Assembly: GCF_005543295.1 (NCBI RefSeq)
Contig: NZ_SRSG01000059.1
Span: 137,247-201,246, forward strand
From: Halalkalirubrum salinum
GTDB lineage: Archaea > Halobacteriota > Halobacteria > Halobacteriales > Haloferacaceae
Length of the DNA: 64,000 bases
Direction: 5' to 3'
Part shown: positions 4,298 to 48,401 of the stretch, in pieces
How the letters are laid out: each line of letters opens with the position of its first letter
How positions within the stretch are numbered: the stretch's first letter is position 1
Made by a program: the position numbers and the translations under genes
The notes under the pieces: model-generated
What the model was told of the DNA's origin: nothing
Databases searched by the model: none
The model's input: the letters and a program-made list of their open reading frames with translations, nothing else

Positions 4298-6595
4298 TCA
4301 CTCTGAGCGTCGCTGATCAGCGTGCCCTGGATAGTCTCGCTCGAAGCGATCCTCGATCGCCGGCCGATCGAAGCGGATCACCGTCGGCCGCCCGTGCGGA
4401 CACTCGTAGGGATTCTCGCAGCCGTCGAGTGCCTCCAGCAGTCCGACGATCGATCCCTCGGTCAGCGACGTGTTCCCCGTCACCGACGGATGACAAGCGA
4501 GGTCCGCGAGGAGTTCGTCGGCCACATCGTCGATCGTCTCTGTGCCGCCGTCTGCGGCGGTCACCAGGGAAACAAGCACGTCTCGAAGGATCTCGGGCTC
4601 GACTGTCGCGTCGAGAATGGCTGGCACCTGTCCGACCCGGAGCCAGCGATCGTCGATCCGCTCGGCAGCGAATCCGAGTTCGGCGATCGACGCTCGGTGT
4701 TCGTCAAACAGCGCGGCCTCTCGGGCAGTGAGTTCGAGTTCGACCGGTGTCGCGAGGGCCTGGGCGGTCCCATCTGCTGCGAACGCCGCCTGGAGACGCT
4801 CGTAGTGCACCCGCTCGTCGGCGGCGTGCTGGTCGATCAACACGAGGCCGTCCTCGCTCTCGGCGACGACGTAGGTGTCGTACAGTTGCCCGAGGACGCG
4901 AAGCGACGGCAGTGCGTCATACGTTCGCGCGGCTGTCGCATCGTCGCCGTCCAGCGTCCGCTGGGTTCCCGTGTCGGCGATCGCTGCGTGTCGACTGGGA
5001 TCTGTCGTCTCATCTGGTTGTGACGCAGCGGTGTTTGTCACAGACTGAGTCGTGTCGGTCACGGACGCAGCGGTATCCGTCTCGGATGTGGTCGGAGCCG
5101 TTAGGGCCGCCGTGGATTCGGATGAGTCAGTTGTCTCTGTGGGCGATCGATCCTGCGTGGGGGCTGCGTCAGTTGATCTCGCCTGCGTCTCGTCTCGTAC
5201 AGTTTCGTCGGGGAGGGCGTCTTTTTTTGGGTTAGTCGATTTCTGTTCAGCCTGCTTTCGCTCCTCAGCCGCCTCCTCGCCGCCGAGTCCGTCGACCGTC
5301 CACGCCTGCGCGCTCTCGGGATCGATCGGTTCGGCGGTCGTACTCTGGCGATCGGCTGGTTCGGCGGTTGGGCGTTGGCGATCGGCTGGTTCGGCGGTTG
5401 GGCGTTGGCGATCGGCTGGTTCGGCGGTTGGGCGTTGGCGATCGTCCTCCTCGGGTGCCTCATTGTGATCGCGAGCGGTGTCGACGGCCGATCCGCCGAC
5501 GACTGGCTCTTCGCTGGTTGCCGGTTCAATTTCAGTCTCCGCAGGGGCCGATCGCCCGCGAGGTGCCGACGACCGTATCAACCCGGCGTCAACCAGCGAC
5601 TCGGCGACCGCAGCCTGCACGGTCTTCGAGACCGCCTCCTCCTCGTCGAAGCGGACCTCGAGCTTGCGCGGGTGGACGTTTACGTCGACAGACGCCGGCG
5701 GGACCGAGACGAAGAGGACGGCGAAGGGATACCGATCGGCGGCGAGTTGGCCGCCGTAGGCGTCAACCACGGCTTCCCGAAGCGTCGCGGCCGTCACGTA
5801 TCGATCGTTGACGAACGTCGCCAGATACTCGCGGGTGCTTCGGTTTGTCTCGGGGTGGCTGACGAGCCCGTGGATTCGTTTGATCGGTCCTGAATCGGGC
5901 GTCTCGTCGATCTCGATCATTGACTCGGCGACCGTTCGGCCGTAGACGGCCAAGATCGCCGATCGAAGATCACCGTTGCCTTCCGTCGCAAAGCGCTCGC
6001 GGCCGTCGTGTTCGAGCGCGAACGCGACATCCGGATTCGCCAGCGCGTACTGCGTCACAACGGTCTGGACGTGATCGAACTCCGTGGCGTCGCGTTTGAG
6101 GAACTTCCGTCTGGCCGGCGTGTTGTAAAACAGCTCTTCGACCTCGATCGTCGTCCCAGTCGGACAGCCGACCGGCCGCGGCTCGTCTGCGTCGCCGCCC
6201 TCGACGCGTAGCTCTGCGCCGACGGGCTGAGCTTCGGGTTTCGATCGGAGCGTGAGCTTCGAGACCGCGGCGATCGTCGACAGCGCCTCGCCGCGAAAAC
6301 CGAGGCTCGCAACGCCTGATTCGAGGTCGTCGATCGCGCGGATCTTGCTCGTCGTGTGCGGCTCGACAGCGATCGACAGCTCCGCTCGTGGAATTCCCGC
6401 CCCGTCGTCAGCGACTCTGATCCCGTCTGTACCGCCGCTCTTGACGGCGACGGAGATCCGCGACGCGCCGGCGTCGAGGCTGTTTTCGACGAGCTCTTTG
6501 ACCACCGAGGCGGGGCGCTCGACGACCTCGCCCGCAGCGATTCGCTCGACTGTCGCCTGATCCAGCGGCTCGATCGACCGGCGATCGTCGCTCAT
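4298..6595 (-). CDS. mutL: DNA mismatch repair protein MutL
   Basis: 765 residues from the ATG at 6593-6595 (MSDDRRSIEPLD); a GTG 21 bp upstream is an alternative. The GHKL ATPase motifs are clear: IAAGEVVERPASVVKELVEN, DDGAGI and GFRGEALSTI. A long acidic, low-complexity linker (about residues 340-560) includes three perfect 10-residue repeats (DRQRPTAEPA). The C-terminal dimerisation/endonuclease domain has DQHAADERVHYE, matching the metal-binding DQHAxxExxxxE of nicking MutL, plus ACHPSV and CPHGRP. MutL couples MutS mismatch recognition to strand incision. It is separated from mutS at 9643-12375 by the molybdenum-cofactor genes, and lies downstream of mocA on the same strand. Confidence 0.96.
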   Translation of the reverse strand: MSDDRRSIEPLDQATVERIAAGEVVERPASVVKELVENSLDAGASRISVAVKSGGTDGIRVADDGAGIPRAELSIAVEPHTTSKIRAIDDLESGVASLGFRGEALSTIAAVSKLTLRSKPEAQPVGAELRVEGGDADEPRPVGCPTGTTIEVEELFYNTPARRKFLKRDATEFDHVQTVVTQYALANPDVAFALEHDGRERFATEGNGDLRSAILAVYGRTVAESMIEIDETPDSGPIKRIHGLVSHPETNRSTREYLATFVNDRYVTAATLREAVVDAYGGQLAADRYPFAVLFVSVPPASVDVNVHPRKLEVRFDEEEAVSKTVQAAVAESLVDAGLIRSSAPRGRSAPAETEIEPATSEEPVVGGSAVDTARDHNEAPEEDDRQRPTAEPADRQRPTAEPADRQRPTAEPADRQSTTAEPIDPESAQAWTVDGLGGEEAAEERKQAEQKSTNPKKDALPDETVRDETQARSTDAAPTQDRSPTETTDSSESTAALTAPTTSETDTAASVTDTTQSVTNTAASQPDETTDPSRHAAIADTGTQRTLDGDDATAARTYDALPSLRVLGQLYDTYVVAESEDGLVLIDQHAADERVHYERLQAAFAADGTAQALATPVELELTAREAALFDEHRASIAELGFAAERIDDRWLRVGQVPAILDATVEPEILRDVLVSLVTAADGGTETIDDVADELLADLACHPSVTGNTSLTEGSIVGLLEALDGCENPYECPHGRPTVIRFDRPAIEDRFERDYPGHADQRRSE
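5348..5437. repeat. Three perfect 30-bp tandem repeats inside the mutL linker
   Basis: Units at 5348-5377, 5378-5407 and 5408-5437 are identical. A degenerate fourth copy lies at about 5318-5347, and the first bases of another follow from 5438. Because 30 is a multiple of 3, each unit adds ten residues (DRQRPTAEPA) to the disordered linker of MutL without changing the frame. Each unit contains the GCGATCGG motif that is over-abundant in this genome. Confidence 0.93.
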
Positions 6596-6725
6596 GGACT
6601 GACGATCGTCGCTCACGGACCGATCACCGCCGCGCGTGGGCCGTTGTTCGTCGGTATTATCATTGATTACGATTCTGGGCGGCGAGCACTTGAACACGGG
6701 TGTTCGTTTATCGGGCGCACGGGAG

Positions 6726-7391
6726 TCACACGCCCGAATCATTCGAGCGATCGTCGACATCCTCGGGTCGATCGACATCCCGACGGATTCCCGGATCGGC
6801 GACCGCGACCAGCGCGCTATTGTCGCCGCCGAGGAGGATCGCTCGCCCGCCGATGTCTCCATCGACGTCACGAAGTGCCGAAAAATGGCTTCGATCGAAG
6901 AGCACCGGGTTCCCCCGTTGGCCATCGACGGCGGGCGCGAGGGCATCTCCAGCGTCGTCGGCATAGGCAGCGACGAGCGTCTGGATCGTTTCGGGTCGAA
7001 CGAACGGCATGTCACCTAGCGCGATGACCACAGCATCGGCATCCGTGGCGGCGATCGCCTTGATCCCACGTGCGACCGATGTTGCTTGGCCGTCCGCGTA
7101 GCGATCGTTTTCGACGATCGTCACGTCAAGCCCGGCCAGCGCGGTACGGACACGATCTGCCTCGTGTCCGACCACGACAGTCACGCCGTCAAGATCGGCC
7201 GCGAGCAGGGTTTCGGCAACATGACGGACGATCGGCCGCCCGTCGACGTCTGTTACGAGCTTATTTCGATCGCCGAAGCGGCTGCTCGTTCCCGCAGCAA
7301 GGAGGAGTCCTGCAACCCGCAGCCCGTTAGTTACCGCCTCGTGGCGCGGTGGGTCGACGATCGGGAGCTCCGATCGATCCTCGTCCGTCAT
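6726..7391 (-). CDS. Molybdenum cofactor nucleotidyltransferase (MocA/MobA-like)
   Basis: 221 residues. The GT-A fold signature LLLAAGTSSRFGDRNKLVTDVDGRPIVRHV carries the NTP-binding loop. VIALGDMPFVRP is the metal/product site usually seen as GDMP in MocA-type enzymes, and GQRGNPVLF is a typical downstream motif. Members transfer CMP or GMP to molybdopterin; the MocA (CTP) type is favoured over MobA by GDMPFV and RGNPVLF. Its ATG overlaps the final TGA of the moeA frame by 4 bp (ATGA, 7388-7391), so the two genes were built for translational coupling in one molybdenum-cofactor operon. Confidence 0.85.
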   Translation of the reverse strand: MTDEDRSELPIVDPPRHEAVTNGLRVAGLLLAAGTSSRFGDRNKLVTDVDGRPIVRHVAETLLAADLDGVTVVVGHEADRVRTALAGLDVTIVENDRYADGQATSVARGIKAIAATDADAVVIALGDMPFVRPETIQTLVAAYADDAGDALAPAVDGQRGNPVLFDRSHFSALRDVDGDIGGRAILLGGDNSALVAVADPGIRRDVDRPEDVDDRSNDSGV

Positions 7392-8668
7392 CGTTCGACC
7401 ACAGGATACGGCACAACCTCAACGGAGTCGTCGGCGCTCAAGCCGCTCTCGGTCAGGACGAACCCGTCCGCCCGGGACGCGCGAGTGCTCGAAGAGAGAA
7501 CACTCGGATTGAATGTCCGATCGTACACCGACAACCCTGATCCCGTCTGTCCGAGCGGGGTCACGACCCGATTAGCCGCATCATTCGTCAGGGTTCCGTC
7601 ATTCGCGATCGTCACTGGAATCGCGTACGCGAACCCCTCGACGGGGAGTTCGACGTCGGCGTCGATCCGCGCAGACAGCTACGGGAGCGAGATATCTCCG
7701 GTAAAGATGGGACGTGCGACGAGCGTGGTGACCGCATGTGCACCGATCGGCTTGCCGGGGATCGCGAGCGCAACCGCGTCGTACTCGGGAAGATCCGCAA
7801 CCGCGATCGGCTTTCCGGGCCGGAGCTTCACTCGGTGGAACAGGACATCGCCAAGTTCCTCGAGTGCACTGATGACGTAGTCTTTCTTCCCAACGCTCGT
7901 CCCGCCGGTGGTGATCACCACGTCATAGCGATCGGCGAGGGCGGCGATGCGATCGACGACCTGGTCGCGATCGTCCGGGACACTTCCCTCGTATGTCGCC
8001 TCCCCGCCCCACGATCGGACCAGCCCGGCGAGCATCGGCGAGTCGAGATCCTGGCTGCGCCCCTCGTGGATCTCTGTACCCGTCGCGAGCACGCCTGCGG
8101 TGATCCGCGCTTTAGCTGGAACCGTCTCGCATCCGAGATCGCCGAGCAGTATCGCGTCCTTCGGGCTGAGCCGATCGCCCGCGTCGAACAGCGTCTCCCC
8201 GGCGGCGACGTTGCTCGCTTTGGCGTAGACGTATGTTCCCGGCTCGATCGCTGTGCCGGTCAACTCCCCGTCCTCGACAGTTGCCTCCTCGCGTTTGAGG
8301 ACCGCGTTTGCACCCGCCGGCAGCGGCGCGCCCGTCGCGATCGGGATCGCTTCGCCGGCCTCGATCGCGGGCGCAGTGTCCTCTGGAAAGACGTCCCCCT
8401 CGTGGACGGTCAGTGGATACGACTCGGTCGCGTCGATCGCGTACCCGTCCATCGTCGCGAAGCTCTCTGGGGGACTGTCGGCCTCGGCGACGATCGGCTC
8501 AGAGAGCGTCCGTCCAGCGATCGAATCGAGTGAGCACTCTTCGGTATCGAGGCGATCAAGGACTCGCTCGCGCAGCGCGAGTACGCGCTCGGCCCCCGCC
8601 CGCCAGGTCAGCATATCGTCGTGGCCGTGGTTAACGCCCCCCGTTGAGGATCCGTCTGACTCCGTCAT
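7388..8668 (-). pseudogene. moeA: Molybdopterin molybdenumtransferase MoeA, interrupted by an in-frame TAG
   Basis: From the ATG at 8666-8668 (MTESDGSS) the frame encodes MoeA: SFATMDGYAIDA, AIPIATGAPLPAGANAVL, GVLATGTEIHEG, ITTGGTSVGKKDYV and LRPGKPIAVA. It meets TAG at 7679-7681 just after GDISLP. Past that codon, in the same frame and without a shift, the sequence continues as a normal MoeA domain IV (about 96 residues, with VLSSSTRASRADGFVLTE and VEVVPYPVVE), ending at a TGA that overlaps the mocA start. MoeA inserts molybdate into adenylylated molybdopterin. The break could be a recent nonsense mutation, a sequencing error, read-through, or tolerated loss of domain IV. A longer N-terminus starting at 8818 is open and has coding-like third positions, but it is not needed for the family fold. 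Confidence 0.85.
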
Positions 8669-8833
8669 CGCGATCGATCGCGGCTGTACACCCCGATCGG
8701 CCTCGACCTCGGCGGCGGCTCGCCGTATCAGATTGCTCACAGCATTGTCGCAGAAGCACTCGCGGTGTCGAACGATCGTGACCCGACTCACCTCAAAACC
8801 CGTGAGGGACACATCCATGAGCGAGTGTCGATC

Positions 8834-8854
8834 GAGCCGTCGGATTGACGGCTC
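8834..8854. repeat. 8-bp inverted repeat upstream of moeA
   Basis: GAGCCGTC at 8834-8841 and GACGGCTC at 8847-8854, separated by 5 bp, form a strong hairpin between the divergent moeA and AbrB-type genes. If moeA transcription starts near the AT-rich promoter at about 8900, this hairpin is in its leader. Confidence 0.6.
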
Positions 8855-8908
8855 CGATGGCCACCATCTTGGCTGGCCGCGTCGATCAGGCAGTTAACTT
8901 TGCGAAAA

Positions 8909-8931
8909 CTATGTATATGCTATTCACATAG
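8909..8931. promoter_or_regulatory. Inverted repeat over the TATA region of the AbrB-type gene (candidate operator)
   Basis: CTATGT at 8909-8914 and ACATAG at 8926-8931 are perfect inverted arms with an 11-bp spacer containing TATATG. The AT-rich core is centred about 26 bp before the ATG at 8941, the spacing of a leaderless haloarchaeal promoter, and it can also serve as a TATA element toward moeA on the other strand. A dimeric AbrB-fold protein binding here would autoregulate and could also repress moeA. Binding is inferred; the repeat is seen. Confidence 0.6.
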
Positions 8932-8940
8932 GCTACACCA

Positions 8941-9090
8941 ATGGGAAACCTGACCGATACGAAAATCTCCGAAAAGAACCTCACGACAGTCCCCAAACCA
9001 GTGCGGAACTTCCTCGATCTCAAAGAGGGCGATCGTGTCGAATGGCACGTCGAAGACGGTCGTATCGTGGTCAAAAAACGCGAGCCGTGA
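8941..9090 (+). CDS. AbrB/MazE/SpoVT-type DNA-binding protein (49 aa)
   Basis: A short frame encodes 49 residues. TKISEKNLTTVPKPVRNFLDL, then KEGDRVEWHVEDGRIVVKK, follows the swapped-hairpin AbrB pattern: a beta strand, the T-V/I-P-K-P-V-R motif, then a beta hairpin around GDRVEW and GRIVVKK. Such proteins act as dimers, as antitoxins or as small transcription regulators. No toxin follows; the next gene is a convergent universal stress protein, so this looks like a solitary regulator. The start is supported by a TATA-like core at leaderless distance and the inverted repeat at 8909-8931. Confidence 0.85.
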   Translation: MGNLTDTKISEKNLTTVPKPVRNFLDLKEGDRVEWHVEDGRIVVKKREP

Positions 9091-9102
9091 CTCGCCGCAG
9101 AA

Positions 9103-9528
9103 TCATTTGATGACGAACACCGGAACGGACGCGTTGTCGACGACCCGATCGGAGACGCTCCCGAGGCTTTCGAGCTTCTCGCGCGGCGTTTTGCCGTGTG
9201 TCCCAATGACGATCACGTCGATGCCGTGTTCGTCGGCGTAGCGGACGATCGCCTTGTCGGGAGTTCCTTCGACGATCGCAGACTCGCTCTCGACGCCCGC
9301 CGTTTTGGCCTGGTCTTCAACCGTCGCGAGGGCGGTTTCACCCTGCTCGCGGAGGTCGCTGGCCACGTCCGTGCGGAGTTCCTCGGAGCTCGCCTGGACG
9401 ATCCGTCTGTCGAGGACGTACAGCGCGTGGATGGTTGCGTCGTTGTCTTTCGCGAGCGGAATCGCGTGTGTGAGCGTGTTTTCGACCGTTTTGCTACCAT
9501 CAGTTGGGATGAGAATTGAATCGTACAT
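9103..9528 (-). CDS. Universal stress protein (UspA family)
   Basis: 141 residues. It begins MYDSILIPTDGSKTVENTLTHA, the Usp nucleotide-fold start, and contains ALYVLD, VEGTPDKAIVRYADEH, DVIVIGTHGK and SDRVVDNASVPVFVIK. The GxHGxxxxxxxxxGS-type ATP-binding loop is GTHGKTPREKLESLGS, so nucleotide binding is likely. Usp proteins are soluble and respond to stress. It is convergent with the AbrB-type gene (stops 12 bp apart) and is followed on the same strand by nothing until the end of mutS upstream. Confidence 0.93.
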   Translation of the reverse strand: MYDSILIPTDGSKTVENTLTHAIPLAKDNDATIHALYVLDRRIVQASSEELRTDVASDLREQGETALATVEDQAKTAGVESESAIVEGTPDKAIVRYADEHGIDVIVIGTHGKTPREKLESLGSVSDRVVDNASVPVFVIK

Positions 9529-41971: not shown

Positions 41972-42043
41972 GGGCTCGTAGATCAGTGGCAGATCGCTTC
42001 CTTCGCAAGGAAGAGGCCCCGGGTTCAAATCCCGGCGAGTCCA
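41972..42043 (+). tRNA. tRNA-Ala (CGC)
   Basis: 72 nt starting GGGCTCGTAGATCAGTGG. Acceptor arms GGGCTCG/CGAGTCC pair over 7 bp (one G-U), the anticodon arm CTTCC-TTCGCAA-GGAAG carries CGC, the T arm is CCGGGTTCAAATCCCGG, and the discriminator is A. CCA is not encoded. Its last 16 bases are the left attachment repeat of the adjacent element. Confidence 0.97.
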
Positions 42044-42339
42044 TTCGTCTCACTTCGTTCGACTCATTCCCTCGCCAACCCTCGCGAATGCTTCGCGTTC
42101 GCTCGGTCCCGGCGAGCCCACTTTTGCCTTATCCGCTATTTTCGGGAGATTCAGATTCTCTACCGCCCACTGAGTATGTCATTACTGATTCGGTGAGAAT
42201 TCGTTACGAGTCGTGACGGGGGTCATCGCTGGCCTGGATTCGCAGTCTTCGACTCGGAGACAGTCAAAATAATCACTCGGTCAACGGGACAGACTGACAA
42301 GCACACCGAGTGGGTCGGAAGTGGTAATCTCCGAAACGC

Positions 42340-42370
42340 TTTAGATTATAGTTCGCGTACTATGAACTAT
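42340..42370 (+). promoter_or_regulatory. Leaderless promoter with operator-like inverted repeat
   Basis: TTTAGATTA (about 42340-42348) is centred about 25 bp before the ATG at 42369, so transcript and coding start probably coincide. ATAGTTC (42348-42354) and GAACTAT (42364-42370) form perfect inverted arms around 9 bp, reaching from the TATA box into the start codon. A protein bound there would block TBP/polymerase access; the encoded winged-helix protein is the obvious candidate. The preceding 42044-42339 holds the post-tRNA repeat tail and no gene. Confidence 0.6.
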
Positions 42371-42998
42371 GTCTGACGCTCCACCTATCACGTACTCACC
42401 GGACGCGGCACACACTGCTCGCCGGTTTTTTGCCTTCCAAAAATTGTTGGGAACTCCCGAACTCGCCCGGTTCTACACGGATCTGCTGATCAACTCCCCG
42501 ACGGCGGTCACCGCGGCCCGTGAGCGCCAGGGATGCTCGAAAAGCACTGCGTACAAGTATGCCAACACGCTGGCCGAGTTGGGAGTCGCAACTGAACTCG
42601 ACGAATACGAGGACGGATCGGCCCTCTGGCGTGCCGACCCTGTGAGCGGCAACTGGACGGACGAAACGACGCTCGAACTCGGTCCAGTTATCATCGCCGT
42701 CTACGGGGCCACCAGCGTCGATGATGACCTCGAACTGTTCGTTGACCGTCACGGGAAGGCAGCACTCGCCCCCGCCGTCACGGCGACAATCGACTACCTG
42801 AAAGGCAACACGACACGCCGCGGCGTCGCGGATGACCTTGACGTCCCTGCTGTAGAGGCCATCGCAGTTACACAGGCGATCGAGCGGATCATCGCCGTGG
42901 TGAAAGACCACGATCCGACGCTCGACGACGTCACGTTCGACGTAGACGTCCACGACCGGGCGATCGAGCAGGCACCGTACCAGCGCAGCGATGAGTGA
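42369..42998 (+). CDS. Winged helix-turn-helix protein (putative antitoxin/regulator of the PIN gene)
   Basis: 209 residues. A helical N-terminus (PDAAHTARRFFAFQKLLGTPELARFYTDLLINSP) leads to a winged helix: TAVTAARERQGCSKSTAYKYANTLAELGVATEL with the wing DEYEDGSALWRADP (about residues 50-90). The C-terminal half (DDLELFVDRHGKAALAPAVTATIDYLKGN onward) is helical and of unknown role, perhaps dimerisation or toxin binding. The stop overlaps the PIN-domain start by 8 bp, the arrangement of antitoxin-toxin pairs. I do not recognise a characterised homologue; antitoxin function is inferred from context. Confidence 0.8.
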   Translation: MSDAPPITYSPDAAHTARRFFAFQKLLGTPELARFYTDLLINSPTAVTAARERQGCSKSTAYKYANTLAELGVATELDEYEDGSALWRADPVSGNWTDETTLELGPVIIAVYGATSVDDDLELFVDRHGKAALAPAVTATIDYLKGNTTRRGVADDLDVPAVEAIAVTQAIERIIAVVKDHDPTLDDVTFDVDVHDRAIEQAPYQRSDE

Positions 42999-43539
42999 GC
43001 CGCATCCGTCGCCGTTTCCGACTGCGCTCATCCTCGATACGAGCTTTCTCCGGACGATCGGTGGGGCGGGAAGTGAGCCCTACCAGACGTTCGTCCAGTA
43101 CGTCCAGGCCGAAGACCGAGAGCTGTACTTGAGTAGTGGTGTCGTCGAAGAACTCACCGAACAGCGTGGCTACATCAGCGTCGATTGGGTGGACCGAGCG
43201 GACACGACGGAGTGGATCACTCTCGCAGGTGAACTCCAACTAGGGGTCCGAGTACACGATGGACCGCGTGCCGGCGAAGTCATGGATCGGGTTCACGAGC
43301 GGTTGGCAGCGTTCGAACAGACGAACCCCGACGAGCTGCGAAAGACGGACTCGGAACTGCCGGCAGTCGGGGTGATGCTTCTCGGCTCTACGCCACACGG
43401 CTCCGTCGGGATTCTGATGGACGACCGAAACGCTGAACGAGCGATCACTGGCGTCATCGAGAACTCATACTACGAAGGACGCATCCGTGTCATCGATATT
43501 TGGACGGCAATTGAATACATGGAGTCACAACTCGGGTGA
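42991..43539 (+). CDS. PIN-domain ribonuclease-like protein (putative toxin)
   Basis: 182 residues. The acidic PIN tetrad can be placed: D of ALILDTSFL (about residue 17), E of SGVVEELTEQ (about 52), D of LRKTDSELPAVGVMLLG and D of GILMDDRNAERAI. PIN toxins cleave tRNA or other RNA using Mg2+. At 182 residues it is longer than the 130-140 of VapC. It is translationally coupled to the upstream winged-helix gene, and both lie between the attachment repeats. It is therefore the probable effector of a two-gene stabilisation or defence module. Confidence 0.8.
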   Translation: MSEPHPSPFPTALILDTSFLRTIGGAGSEPYQTFVQYVQAEDRELYLSSGVVEELTEQRGYISVDWVDRADTTEWITLAGELQLGVRVHDGPRAGEVMDRVHERLAAFEQTNPDELRKTDSELPAVGVMLLGSTPHGSVGILMDDRNAERAITGVIENSYYEGRIRVIDIWTAIEYMESQLG

Positions 43540-43953
43540 GCGAGGGAACCCGAGAGAAGCATAGAATTTATCCTCCGGTGTCACTACTGTCTGTTGCATT
43601 ACCACAACGACTGGCGGACTAATCGCCTGACAGCACGGGGATTAAACGGATTTTTTGAAGTAGCGTAACGGAATCCCGGCGAGTCCACTCACTTTCTTCC
43701 GTCGCTTCGCTCCGTCAGTCGTTCGTGGACTCGCCGACCTTCGCGAAACCTCCGGTTTCGCTCAGTCCCGGCGAGTTAATTTGTCTCGCTTCGACGAGAT
43801 TCCCGTAGCTCTTGATCGATCGGTGCCTGTTCCAGTGTGGTTTCTTTGGTCTCATACTCTGCCTGAGAGTACATGCTGAGATTTACAACGAAGAGAGAAA
43901 TTCACCCATAAAAATAAGTCGTGTGTGTTGATATATTCTTCCAAGATTGATCC
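43540..43953. other. Gene-free stretch containing the right attachment site and nested tRNA-end copies
   Basis: 43540-43671 is the tail of the mini-element, 43672-43687 its right repeat. A GC-rich tail with short internal palindromes (TCGCTTCGCTCCG, CGAAACCTCCGGTTTCG) ends in a degenerate copy at 43766-43779. From about 43780 the sequence turns AT-rich and contains the promoter region of the next gene. No coding region was found. Confidence 0.6.
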
Positions 43954-44640
43954 ATGTCGTTAGGTACAAATCAACAGTTGGCAAGTGATGTTGTCTCAGC
44001 AATCAAGGAATGGACGCCATCAGAGGCTCACGGTCACGAGTCGAAGTTTCAAAACGAGTTGCAGGAGTATCTCGATTATCGACTAAACTCGGGCAGCAGC
44101 ATGATCGGTGCAAATGAGCAAATTGTAGTCGAACGTGAACACGGCAATGTCAACGGAGATGTCGTTGTCAATGGGGCCATCGGGATTGAGATGAAACGTG
44201 ACTTTTCGAACAACCAAGCCAAGAAACTACGCGGGCAAATTGAAGAATACCAGAGAGAGTACACTCATGTCATTGCTCTCGCTTGCGGTATTGAAGATAT
44301 GGACGGGTGGCGAAAATTGAAAAACGACTACGAGAATCAGCCAGGTATAGGGATGAATCCAGACGATGCCCCCGTACGGTTCATTCACAAAGCAAAATCA
44401 AACTACGGAACAGGAGACTCCGCGAGTAATTACGAGCATGCAGATGGGAGCAGTCAGGGTGGGGCAGAATTAGAAGAACTCGCTGAAGTCATTGAGGGGG
44501 GCGTGAAAGGGTATCAATCACTTACAGATGGTGGACCTATGGACTCTGGTAAAGCCGTTATAGCTGTCGCCCAGGCCGTCTTTGTTGTTGGTTTTGTTCT
44601 TGTTCTTATCGGCGTTATTTTGTTCAGTTTTGTTCTGTGA
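43954..44640 (+). CDS. Putative membrane-anchored PD-(D/E)XK nuclease
   Basis: 228 residues. The N-terminal domain fits the restriction-endonuclease-like core: E29 in a first helix (HESKFQNELQEYL), D69 in NGDVVV, then E79-x-K81 in GIEMKRDF, and a helix with Q95 (LRGQIEEYQREY) followed by the strand THVIALACG. An acidic, Ser/Gly-rich linker (about 150-195) leads to one transmembrane helix at about 200-228 that ends the protein. The D-x9-ExK spacing is typical of the fold. Codon use is more AT-rich than the surrounding core genes, and it lies just outside the tRNA-Ala element. I know no described member with this anchor; a role against incoming DNA is a hypothesis. Confidence 0.68.
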   Translation: MSLGTNQQLASDVVSAIKEWTPSEAHGHESKFQNELQEYLDYRLNSGSSMIGANEQIVVEREHGNVNGDVVVNGAIGIEMKRDFSNNQAKKLRGQIEEYQREYTHVIALACGIEDMDGWRKLKNDYENQPGIGMNPDDAPVRFIHKAKSNYGTGDSASNYEHADGSSQGGAELEELAEVIEGGVKGYQSLTDGGPMDSGKAVIAVAQAVFVVGFVLVLIGVILFSFVL

Positions 44641-45177
44641 ATAGCCCATCCTGTTTAACTCTACTGAGACGCTGAGTAACTGATATGCATCGTGTTCGAG
44701 CAGGGAGATATATTTAATATGAGGATATGCTGAAATACTCATTTTTTGACACATACTTCGTACCGCATACGGAGGGTAATTCCAGCAACAAAAAAGCAAA
44801 TTACGGCAGCGATCGAGGTGATTGAGAGTGTAGATTTATATCAAAATGGGTGTCTGTTACCCCGAGATGACGGGTTTCACCGATCGCCCATCCATCGAGA
44901 GATAAAATAGGGACGTAACGAATCAAGATTTGGCTTAGTGACGAGTGAAAGCGGGTTCTTGATCGGTGAGTGCGATTGTTAGAGCCGTCCTTACGACGAT
45001 CTGCTGCATCGATCGTTCTTCATGCAACTCTTACTCATTTGATTAAATCAAAAGAAATCTTGAGTAGGTATGCGGTGATCTCGATCCGACGACAATCCAG
45101 CAGTTCAACACGTCAGTACTTGGAACTCGATATCGGATATCGATCGAAAGTAGATATCAATAGCGTAAGTATGTTAT
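44641..45177. other. AT-rich stretch with no supportable gene
   Basis: No frame longer than about 60 codons looks coding. A minus-strand stretch near 44750-44830 could encode a membrane-like segment (ITSIAAVICFFVAGI) but has no start codon. Two pairs of GATATCGAT-type AT-rich palindromes occur near 45130-45150. I read it as degraded island DNA plus the downstream region of the pilin gene. Confidence 0.5.
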
Positions 45178-45943: not shown

Positions 45944-46951
45944 CTAGCTGCTGTAGCCCTTCGACTCGCTGTCGATCGGGCCAGCGAAAGTGCGATACAG
46001 GAATCTGAAGTACCAAAGCACCAGCAATAAGACGGGAAGCCCGAGGATCGTGGTCAGGTTGAGCGCAAGCGGAGAGACAACAACGGCATCGATGGTGAGC
46101 CCGCTTTCGGGATAGATCGTCGGGTAGAGGAGGGTGCCGACAAGCCCGACTAAGAGAAACGAGAGCCCGACGGTCGATCCGAACCAGAGCCGGTGTCGAC
46201 CCTGTCTGGCGGCGACAATCCCACCGATCCCGAAAACGACGCTGGCAAGAACGACAGCGATCGCCGGCAGTGTCCACAAGAGGGCTCGAACGTTCGAGGG
46301 GTTGAGCCAGGAGACAACTATCAGCAAAAGGACAACGCCGCCGAGATAGGCAGCCGTCGACGCAGTGCCGTATCGAACCATTGTGTCGGCCAGTGAGCCG
46401 CTCGTTTTGGCCGCCAGAAAGGCTGCTCCGCTGGTCAGACAGAGCGCAACGAGGCCGACGCCGGTGAGCAGACTCGGAAGGCTGACCACCGACGTTCCGA
46501 AGATCCAACTGCCGACCAGTGTACCGAGAAGCAACGGGGTGACGGTGCTGCCGAAGACGAACAGCTGATCACACCGTCGGCGCCACGCAGGGTCCTCACG
46601 CTGTTCGCGGAGCTCAGGCGCGATACCGCGAAAGAGCAGTGCCATCACGATCGCGATCGCAAGCAGGTAGTGCTCGCTCAACAGCCGCGAGTAGACCGCC
46701 GGAAACGCTGCCAAGAGGGTCGTCCCAAAGGCGACAATCCAGACCTCGTTCGCGTCCCAGATCGGCCCAAATGCCGACAGCAGTGTTTCGCGATCGTGCT
46801 CGTCACGGGTGGCATACAGCATGCCGATCCCGAAGTCCATCCCGTCGAGGGCGACGTACATCGCCAGTGTGAACATGACGACGCCGAACCAGACGGTCGG
46901 CAGCGACTCGATGAGATACGAGTCGACCGGAATCAGCAGGGGACTAGTCAT
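45944..46951 (-). CDS. cydB: Cytochrome bd-type quinol oxidase subunit II
   Basis: 335 residues, eight or more membrane helices. PTVWFGVVMFTLAMYVALDGMDFGIGML is the family's first helix signature, and IWDANEVWIVAFGTTLLAAFPAVYS is the conserved second segment. It pairs with CydA in a membrane oxidase that reduces O2 to water with quinol as donor. The ATG overlaps the end of cydA by 8 bp, so it is co-translated. Stop codon is TAG. Confidence 0.95.
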   Translation of the reverse strand: MTSPLLIPVDSYLIESLPTVWFGVVMFTLAMYVALDGMDFGIGMLYATRDEHDRETLLSAFGPIWDANEVWIVAFGTTLLAAFPAVYSRLLSEHYLLAIAIVMALLFRGIAPELREQREDPAWRRRCDQLFVFGSTVTPLLLGTLVGSWIFGTSVVSLPSLLTGVGLVALCLTSGAAFLAAKTSGSLADTMVRYGTASTAAYLGGVVLLLIVVSWLNPSNVRALLWTLPAIAVVLASVVFGIGGIVAARQGRHRLWFGSTVGLSFLLVGLVGTLLYPTIYPESGLTIDAVVVSPLALNLTTILGLPVLLLVLWYFRFLYRTFAGPIDSESKGYSS

Positions 46952-48401
46952 CGCCGCCCACCCAGGGGAGCTGCGGTCGATCAGACTCCGCAGGCGTTCG
47001 GACTCCCATCCGTTCGAGTTCGGCCTCGATCAGCCACTTGAGAACGAAACCGAACGCCGTCAACAAGGCGAGATAGAGGACGACAAACGCGAGGAGCGTA
47101 CCCGTCGCTTCGGTGCCCGTCAGCGTGGTCGATACTGCATCGTTGGTCTTGAGGACATCCTGAATAACCCAGGGCTGTCGACCGATTTCAGTGACGTACC
47201 AGCCAGTTAGCAGGGCGATAAAACCCAACGGGCTTGCCAGCATCATCGCCTGAAGGTACCGGGTACTCTCGTGGAGTCTGCCCTGTCGAAGCAAGTACCC
47301 ACCCCAGAGAGCAAGGCCAATGAACAGGAACCCGAGTCCGACCATTACGCGGAACGACCAGAAGACAAGTGCGACAGGTGGATTGTCGTCGTACTCGTGT
47401 AAGCCAATAACCTCGGCTTGGAAATCACCCCCACTGGCGAGAAAGGAGCCCAAAGCAGGGAGACTGATCGTAAAGAGGTTGTCCGTCCGCGGATCTGTGA
47501 GTGCGTCAACGCTTTTCGGCACGGCAATCAGATGGAGATCAGCCTGACCGGTATCGTAGTGAGCTTCCATGGCGGCGAACTTCTGTGGCTGGGTGTCGGC
47601 GACGTGTCGACCGTAGGCGTCTCCGTGGATCGCCTGAAACGGCGCAGTGATCAAAAGCAGGACGACCGCCATTTTGAGGGCGGTATTCCACGCCTTCGAC
47701 GTGCGGTTGTGCCAGACGAAGTAGGCAGCGATGCCGGCGACGACCAGCGTCACTGAGATCACTGACGCGTTGATCATGTGGACGTACATCCACGGCATCC
47801 GCGGGGTGAAAAACGCCGCTATCGGGTCCGTGAGCGTGGCAATCTCCATTCCGTTGCGATCGATAAGCTCGAAGCCCTGTGGCGTCTGCATCCACGCGTT
47901 GACGACGAGAATCCAAAATCCAGAGAGCCATGCTCCAAAGCCGGTTAGCACTGCTGAAAGGATGTAGGTCCGATCGGAAACCCGCTCGCGACCGAATAGC
48001 AAGACACCGAGGAAGACAGCCTCGAGAAAGAAGGCCATCTTGGCCTCAAACGCTAAGGGTCCGCCGATTAGCTCACCGGCGACCTCAGAGAACACCGGGA
48101 AGTTCGTCCCGAACTGGAAACTCATCGGGATTCCCGTTACCGTCCCCATCACGAAACCGACAGCAAACACCCTGACCCAGAACTCCCGAAGGCTGGTGTA
48201 GGCTGCCGCGTCGCTTGTGACATCTTTCCAGGTGAAGTAGATAATAAACGGCGCCAGTCCGATCGAGAGCGCCGCAAAGATGATGTGTACAGTAATCGTC
48301 CAGCCGAACTGCGCTCTGCTTGCCAGTTCGGGAGATAACAGTAGACTGGTTTCTACGAGTTGGACCCCACCGCTCAGTACAGCGTTGGATGCGGCTATCA
48401 T
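46944..48401 (-). CDS. cydA: Cytochrome bd-type quinol oxidase subunit I
   Basis: 485 residues, about nine helices. SRAQFGWTITVHIIFAALSIGLAPF carries the His ligand of the high-spin haems. The Q-loop begins after the fifth helix, and the hallmark GWYVTEIGRQPWVIQDVLKT is present. The MPWMYVHMINASVIS segment carries further haem ligands. The Q-loop is short, as in non-enterobacterial enzymes. Probably expressed at low O2; the promoter lies in the AT-rich region at 48402-48744. Confidence 0.96.
   Translation of the reverse strand: MIAASNAVLSGGVQLVETSLLLSPELASRAQFGWTITVHIIFAALSIGLAPFIIYFTWKDVTSDAAAYTSLREFWVRVFAVGFVMGTVTGIPMSFQFGTNFPVFSEVAGELIGGPLAFEAKMAFFLEAVFLGVLLFGRERVSDRTYILSAVLTGFGAWLSGFWILVVNAWMQTPQGFELIDRNGMEIATLTDPIAAFFTPRMPWMYVHMINASVISVTLVVAGIAAYFVWHNRTSKAWNTALKMAVVLLLITAPFQAIHGDAYGRHVADTQPQKFAAMEAHYDTGQADLHLIAVPKSVDALTDPRTDNLFTISLPALGSFLASGGDFQAEVIGLHEYDDNPPVALVFWSFRVMVGLGFLFIGLALWGGYLLRQGRLHESTRYLQAMMLASPLGFIALLTGWYVTEIGRQPWVIQDVLKTNDAVSTTLTGTEATGTLLAFVVLYLALLTAFGFVLKWLIEAELERMGVRTPAESDRPQLPWVGGDD

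Follow-up and report, generated by a model that had tools for sequence, protein, structure and literature searches.

A predicted membrane-anchored PD-(D/E)XK nuclease of haloarchaea, with a putative anchor encoded either within the gene or by a tiny neighbouring open reading frame

The gene described here is located at positions 43954 to 44640, on the forward strand, of the window, i.e. the whole stretch of 64,000 nucleotides that was analysed; its open reading frame, its homologues and its predicted fold mark it as the gene of a predicted membrane-anchored PD-(D/E)XK nuclease of 228 residues. The frame, first proposed in an initial annotation made from the DNA letters, can be regarded as real: it is listed among the frames of the window with an ATG start and 228 codons, 2000 rounds of shuffling of the 1.6 kb around it produced no open frame of this length, and its closest homologue (locus L032, Halorubrum laminariae) matches it over the full length, with 71% identity. 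The GC content of the gene is 47%, compared to 60.5% for the window, in agreement with the AT-richer DNA noted in that annotation.

A tRNA-Ala gene, ending at position 42043, lies upstream; repeats of its 3'-end, at positions 42030, 43674 and 43766, bracket a module (positions 41972 to 43855) that consists of an HTH (DUF7437) gene and a PIN-like gene, the latter being labelled from its sequence, with no matching family model in Pfam or NCBIfam. In the sister genome G001, the module is found at 98% identity, but its distance to the tRNA is about 4 kb greater, with extra genes intervening, and the layout suggests that integrations may have been stacked at tRNA-Ala. The nuclease-bearing segment of the window (positions 43856 to 44877, no strand assigned) is absent from G001, where its flanks are about 47 nt apart; since G001 carries the module without the nuclease, the nuclease is not cargo of the tRNA/PIN element, and the possibility that the two form a single element was rejected. 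The initial annotation had placed the gene just past a tRNA integration site, next to a PIN module; the gene does lie beyond tRNA-Ala, but outside the HTH-PIN element that the tRNA repeats bracket. The nuclease gene adjoins a type IV pilin gene. A pair of cytochrome bd oxidase genes (window positions 45944 to 48401) is missing in G001 between the pilin and the HEAT-repeat genes, and appears to be a further indel beside the nuclease.

The encoded protein is divided into three parts, all on the forward strand: the nuclease core (residues 1-160, positions 43954 to 44433), an acidic linker (residues 161-200, positions 44434 to 44553) and a C-terminal transmembrane helix (residues 201-228, positions 44554 to 44637). 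The linker is recognised by its composition, with nine D/E residues against two K/R residues ahead of the helix, and contains a helix (residues 171-191) that is predicted with low confidence. The last 28 residues (AVIAVAQAVFVVGFVLVLIGVILFSFVL) have a Kyte-Doolittle hydropathy of 3.13, as in a strongly hydrophobic helix, and coincide with a helix of the structural model (residues 198-227). The membrane helix and the acidic linker claimed by the initial annotation are thus present, and the five core residues that it named, E29, D69, E79, K81 and Q95, are found at the positions that it gave.

The fold of the core was modelled with AlphaFold2. In the full-length model, which was built on 12 aligned sequences, the pLDDT of the core is about 90 in most blocks, and the order of its elements is alpha-beta-beta-beta-alpha-beta (H29-46, E59-61, E70-72, E76-84, H86-102, E105-113); the core modelled alone (residues 1-160) has the identical order of elements, with a pTM of 0.80. 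In this model, E29 (positions 44038 to 44040) is located on the first core helix, D69 (positions 44158 to 44160) just ahead of strand 2, E79 and K81 (E79-x-K81, positions 44188 to 44196) on strand 3, and Q95 and Y99 (Q95-xxx-Y99, positions 44236 to 44250) on the helix that follows; the modelled core therefore follows the PD-(D/E)XK plan and carries a motif of the QxxxY type.

The VIA comparison leads to the same fold: 25 of the 26 best-scoring solved structures are PD-(D/E)XK proteins, an assignment that we take from established knowledge of the matched structures, and many of them are restriction or defence nucleases. The matches include PaqCI (Z 7.3), BamHI (6.8), Can2 (6.8), LmuA (5.8), AspBHI (5.2) and Cap4 (5.2), as well as EcoT38I, BspD6I, AF1548, NucS/EndoMS, SgrAI and others, while the sole structure of another kind among the 26 is the N-terminal domain of YqgP. 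The Z-scores range from 5 to 7.3, i.e. all below 8 and below the level at which any single match is to be trusted, and it is the consistency of the matches despite these low scores that is telling, pointing to the PD-(D/E)XK fold for the modelled protein. Foldseek, run with whole and trimmed models, returned no E-value better than 0.01, hence none below 0.001; no Pfam (E up to 1), NCBIfam or PADLOC model matches the protein, and searches of PDB sequences, with the single protein and with a profile, gave nothing or chance-level matches. The comparison with Mrr-like or Hjc-like nucleases that the initial annotation had suggested gave no counterpart in Pfam or NCBIfam, where neither an Mrr nor a Holliday junction resolvase model matches the protein. 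A profile of phage proteins, PHROG 28707 ('nuclease'), is matched weakly by residues 12-110 (E 3e-4); this assignment was rejected, the match being too weak and a tblastn search of phage records having given no homologue.

The comparison of the homologues, searched for in 391 genomes of the class of the host (Halobacteria), separates a catalytic branch, present in 23 of the 391 genomes (6% of haloarchaeal genomes), from a divergent branch, present in six further genomes of the sample. Residues E29, Q33, D69, E79, K81 and Q95 are invariant in all 24 intact catalytic homologues, and Y99 is kept in 23 of the 24. With the predicted core in place and D69, E79 and K81 invariant, the nuclease fold proposed at the outset is upheld; the fold and the active site are strongly supported, and the active site appears to be under selection. 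Three copies are broken or truncated, and L046, a member of the window's own clade, has lost E79, K81 and Q95 together with the C-terminal helix. At 23 of 24 loci, the gene has a lower GC content than the DNA around it, the mean difference being 14 points, and the nuclease is the only gene in common when the loci are compared in pairs; from its presence in 6% of the genomes, its low GC content, its absence in G001, this pattern of a single shared gene and the decayed copies, we regard the nuclease gene as accessory. No homologues were found in IMG/VR (two scans), in phage records (tblastn) or in plasmids, and a viral or plasmid origin was rejected on these grounds. In genome G242, two nuclease-bearing stretches of 16.5 kb (L058 and L071), located about 61 kb apart on one contig, are 100% identical; either a large stretch was duplicated recently or the assembly has produced the second copy.

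The helix of the window protein is a less constant feature than its active site. A C-terminal helix occurs in only four catalytic sequences (the window, L032, L043 and L044), which group with L046 in a single supported clade; most other homologues are soluble proteins whose C-terminus is a Gly-rich tail with a few hydrophobic residues at its end. The expectation that homologues always keep both the ExK residues and the helix thus holds for the ExK residues and was rejected for the helix, which among the catalytic sequences is confined to these four.

At 13 of the 20 loci where the nuclease is not fused to a helix, a tiny open reading frame is found on the same strand, starting at the nuclease stop codon or within about 60 nt of it; its start often overlaps the stop codon, as TGATG or TAATG. 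The tiny frames encode 29-61 residues with one or two membrane helices: one type consists of about 30 residues with a single helix (core LPDWIVLLMLVLFLIGAAIVLYL), while the others consist of 53-61 residues with two helices. At a fourteenth unfused locus (L039), the tiny frame is present with a disrupted start codon, and at the remaining six (L034, L050, L051, L054, L055 and L056) no adjacent membrane frame is visible. A comparable downstream frame follows 4 of 383 control genes from the same loci, a count reached after a member of the family (L037) that had landed in the control set was taken out by hand; the Fisher p-value of 2e-16 is descriptive, as the criteria for the tiny frames were set after the pattern had been noticed and the loci are phylogenetically non-independent. 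Between loci, the 30-residue type has a pS of 0.78 and a pN of 0.19, an indication that the protein is translated and under selection. One query per type against the 391 genomes returned seven and four places, respectively, and all 11 adjoin the nuclease. At two loci (L035, positions 8520-8642, and L039, positions 2716-2880), the tiny frame is in the frame of the nuclease, directly past its stop codon, in a state of near-fusion.

Since most unfused homologues are followed by a separate tiny membrane frame, the best view of the window gene is that it unites in one frame a pair composed of a nuclease and its anchor. Membrane coupling of the nuclease, although not universal, is well supported by these gene layouts and by the models: the membrane tethering claimed in the initial annotation is seen as a helix or as a separate tiny frame, and neither of the two is seen at the six loci listed above. 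From the adjacency of their genes, we infer that the nuclease and the tiny protein bind each other, and the Gly-rich tail may serve as a docking peptide; the tail is also kept at loci without a downstream tiny membrane frame. Similar endings of the tail (GGGLF, GGMFDF, GDLLGF) are conserved, e.g. in L036, L049, L054 and L055.

The wider neighbourhood was surveyed through the 134 nearest neighbours of the gene at 25 homologous loci. Most of them are housekeeping genes; Pfam identifies three as phage integrases and one as a restriction enzyme of the AspBHI type, PADLOC matches are few, and in these raw counts no enrichment of the kind expected of a defence island is seen among the 134. Apart from the tiny frame, the catalytic branch has no conserved operon partner, and pairwise comparison of the loci that lack the tiny frame revealed nothing in common around them except the nuclease. 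The neighbourhood of defence genes that had been read into the window is therefore not borne out, the PIN module being an independent insertion and the 25 loci having mostly housekeeping neighbours and few PADLOC matches. A large PADLOC-scoring gene near L060 was set aside as a defence candidate, as it encodes an ATPase of SMC length and is probably a housekeeping gene.

A sister branch of the domain, found in seven genomes and homologous to the catalytic branch with an hhalign probability of 98.6% (E 1e-15), retains structural residues (e.g. W20, L36, L44, N45 and F143), while E29, Q33, E79, K81 and N86 are absent and Q95 is lost in six of the seven. The proteins of this branch have two C-terminal helices, and the GC content of their genes differs little from that of the locus around them. 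A HalX response regulator, of the two-component kind, is encoded nearby at five of the seven loci, and at L063, L067 and L068 a DUF7504 gene is located directly between the HalX regulator and the dead domain. At these three loci (L063, positions 7698-9410; L067, positions 6471-8597; L068, positions 6729-8591), the dead domain comes last, after the HalX and DUF7504 genes, and the gene ends overlap or abut. The dead domain is possibly a membrane sensor derived from a nuclease; in published work on HalX regulators in Haloferax motility, no link to this branch was found.

Three membrane-associated nuclease systems invite comparison with the window protein. SNIPE is a bacterial, membrane-bound anti-phage nuclease that cuts phage DNA during injection, is toxic once its anchor is removed, and has variable anchors among its homologues (PMC13190303). 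The window protein, with its hydrophobic C-terminal helix, would resemble it in combining a membrane anchor with a cytosolic nuclease, and resembles it in the variability of the anchor and in the proposed action on entering DNA; it differs in its parts, the helix of SNIPE being N-terminal and its domains being DUF4041 and a GIY-YIG nuclease, where the haloarchaeal family has a C-terminal helix or a tiny protein and a PD-(D/E)XK domain. No GIY-YIG domain was found in the window protein, given its PD-(D/E)XK fold and motifs and the lack of a Pfam match, and no DUF4041 domain was found with Pfam, NCBIfam or PADLOC; moreover, the function of SNIPE is experimentally proven, whereas the window nuclease is known from its sequence and a model. 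ShdA, of the Shield system, is a membrane-anchored anti-phage nuclease of the PD-(D/E)XK superfamily with an RmuC domain, whose DNA degradation and phage defence are known (PMC10270631). It shares with the window protein the superfamily and the membrane location, but has an N-terminal helix where the window protein has a C-terminal one, and no match to the RmuC domain (PF02646) was found in the latter with Pfam at E up to 1. COG4741 is an archaeal, membrane-linked PD-(D/E)XK family for which a protective role at the membrane, directed against foreign DNA, was suggested in 2005 (PMC1189080); it resembles the window protein in its small, predicted cytosolic domain with one membrane helix, but its helix is N-terminal and its core is minimal and related to YraN, while the window family has a C-terminal or separate helix and no Pfam or NCBIfam match. 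Judged by the features compared, none of the three includes the window protein. The closest analogue to our reading of a tethered nuclease is the published SNIPE model.

According to the reading that we defend, to which we grant an even chance of being correct, the window gene encodes a SNIPE-like, membrane-tethered PD-(D/E)XK DNase, the fused version of the nuclease-anchor pair, that cuts incoming DNA. The predicted, catalytically competent DNase domain would face the cytoplasm, tethered to the inner side of the membrane by the C-terminal helix, or, in most homologues, by a separate membrane protein of 29-61 residues encoded directly after the nuclease; such tethering would keep the nuclease away from the chromosome, and would let it meet viral or plasmid DNA at the entry site and cut it during or just after entry. 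The overall architecture is well supported, and the accessory status and low GC content of the gene are supported as well; the defence role is putative. No domain for the recognition of DNA or of a virus is visible in the window protein. Against this reading stand the Z-scores below 8 and the weak Foldseek E-values, the six of 20 unfused loci without a partner, the mostly housekeeping neighbours and the lack of homologues in the viral, phage and plasmid collections searched.

The same parts could be assembled differently. Membrane-active toxins are typically tiny hydrophobic proteins of this kind, with one helix or two, and the sister branch retains two helices with its catalytic residues gone; both facts would suit an abortive-infection device, in which the task of the nuclease fold would be to sense or trim foreign DNA, and that of the helix or tiny protein, as the effector, to damage the membrane once activated. 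We consider such a device unlikely, as the catalytic residues are invariant (24/24) in the branch that bears the anchors and six loci have no membrane frame next to the nuclease. The overlapping two-gene layout, the accessory, low-GC gene that moves as a single locus, and the toxicity of SNIPE without its tether (PMC13190303) would also fit a pair resembling a toxin and its antitoxin, where the tiny membrane protein neutralises the nuclease by holding it at the membrane, mainly for the persistence of the locus and not for defence; in the fused form, however, toxin and antitoxin would occupy one chain, the partner is missing at several loci, and each half survives without the other (a broken nuclease with an intact tiny frame at L070, an intact nuclease with the tiny frame gone at L056), which makes this arrangement quite improbable in our view.

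A role in DNA processing at the membrane, unrelated to defence, e.g. the trimming of DNA from uptake or mating or the repair of membrane-associated DNA, would agree with the mostly housekeeping surroundings, with a nuclease at the membrane and with the type IV pilin gene beside it in the window; it too seems improbable, given that no more than 23 of 391 genomes have the gene, that its GC content is atypical and some copies are decayed, and that G001 has the pilin gene without the nuclease. A broader form of the defence reading, which we put forward as tentative and rather doubtful, is a two-part archaeal system with an exchangeable tether, i.e. a fused helix or a separate membrane protein of 30-60 residues and of more than one kind, whose dead branch would have become a sensor of nucleic acids at the membrane, with its output going to a HalX two-component regulator.

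The use of membrane position to tell foreign from own DNA has reportedly been shown recently in bacteria, for SNIPE, Zorya and Kiwa. The new element here is the interchangeable anchor, fused helix or separate tiny membrane protein, and by analogy the pattern of nuclease and anchor may serve to protect the cell from incoming DNA. If the tethered-DNase reading is true, it would suggest that archaea use the principle of membrane position with parts different from those of bacteria: an unrelated archaeal nuclease family would have been coupled repeatedly to anchors, some of them tiny proteins that can escape gene prediction, in a compact system that is testable in halovirus hosts. For the pair of nuclease and tiny protein, the prediction is that loss of the anchor would make the enzyme toxic to its own host.

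Outside the class, the relatives are weaker, being soluble or having N-terminal helices. Taken together, the fused, separate, two-helix and N-terminal forms suggest that the membrane attachment of such domains arose in several ways. Four weak relatives from other classes of the phylum (L110, L112, L113 and L115) carry their membrane helices at the N-terminus, show a pattern resembling D..ELK..Q..DYA and come near Pfam PDDEXK_3; in three of these four, the GC content of the gene is very low relative to its locus.
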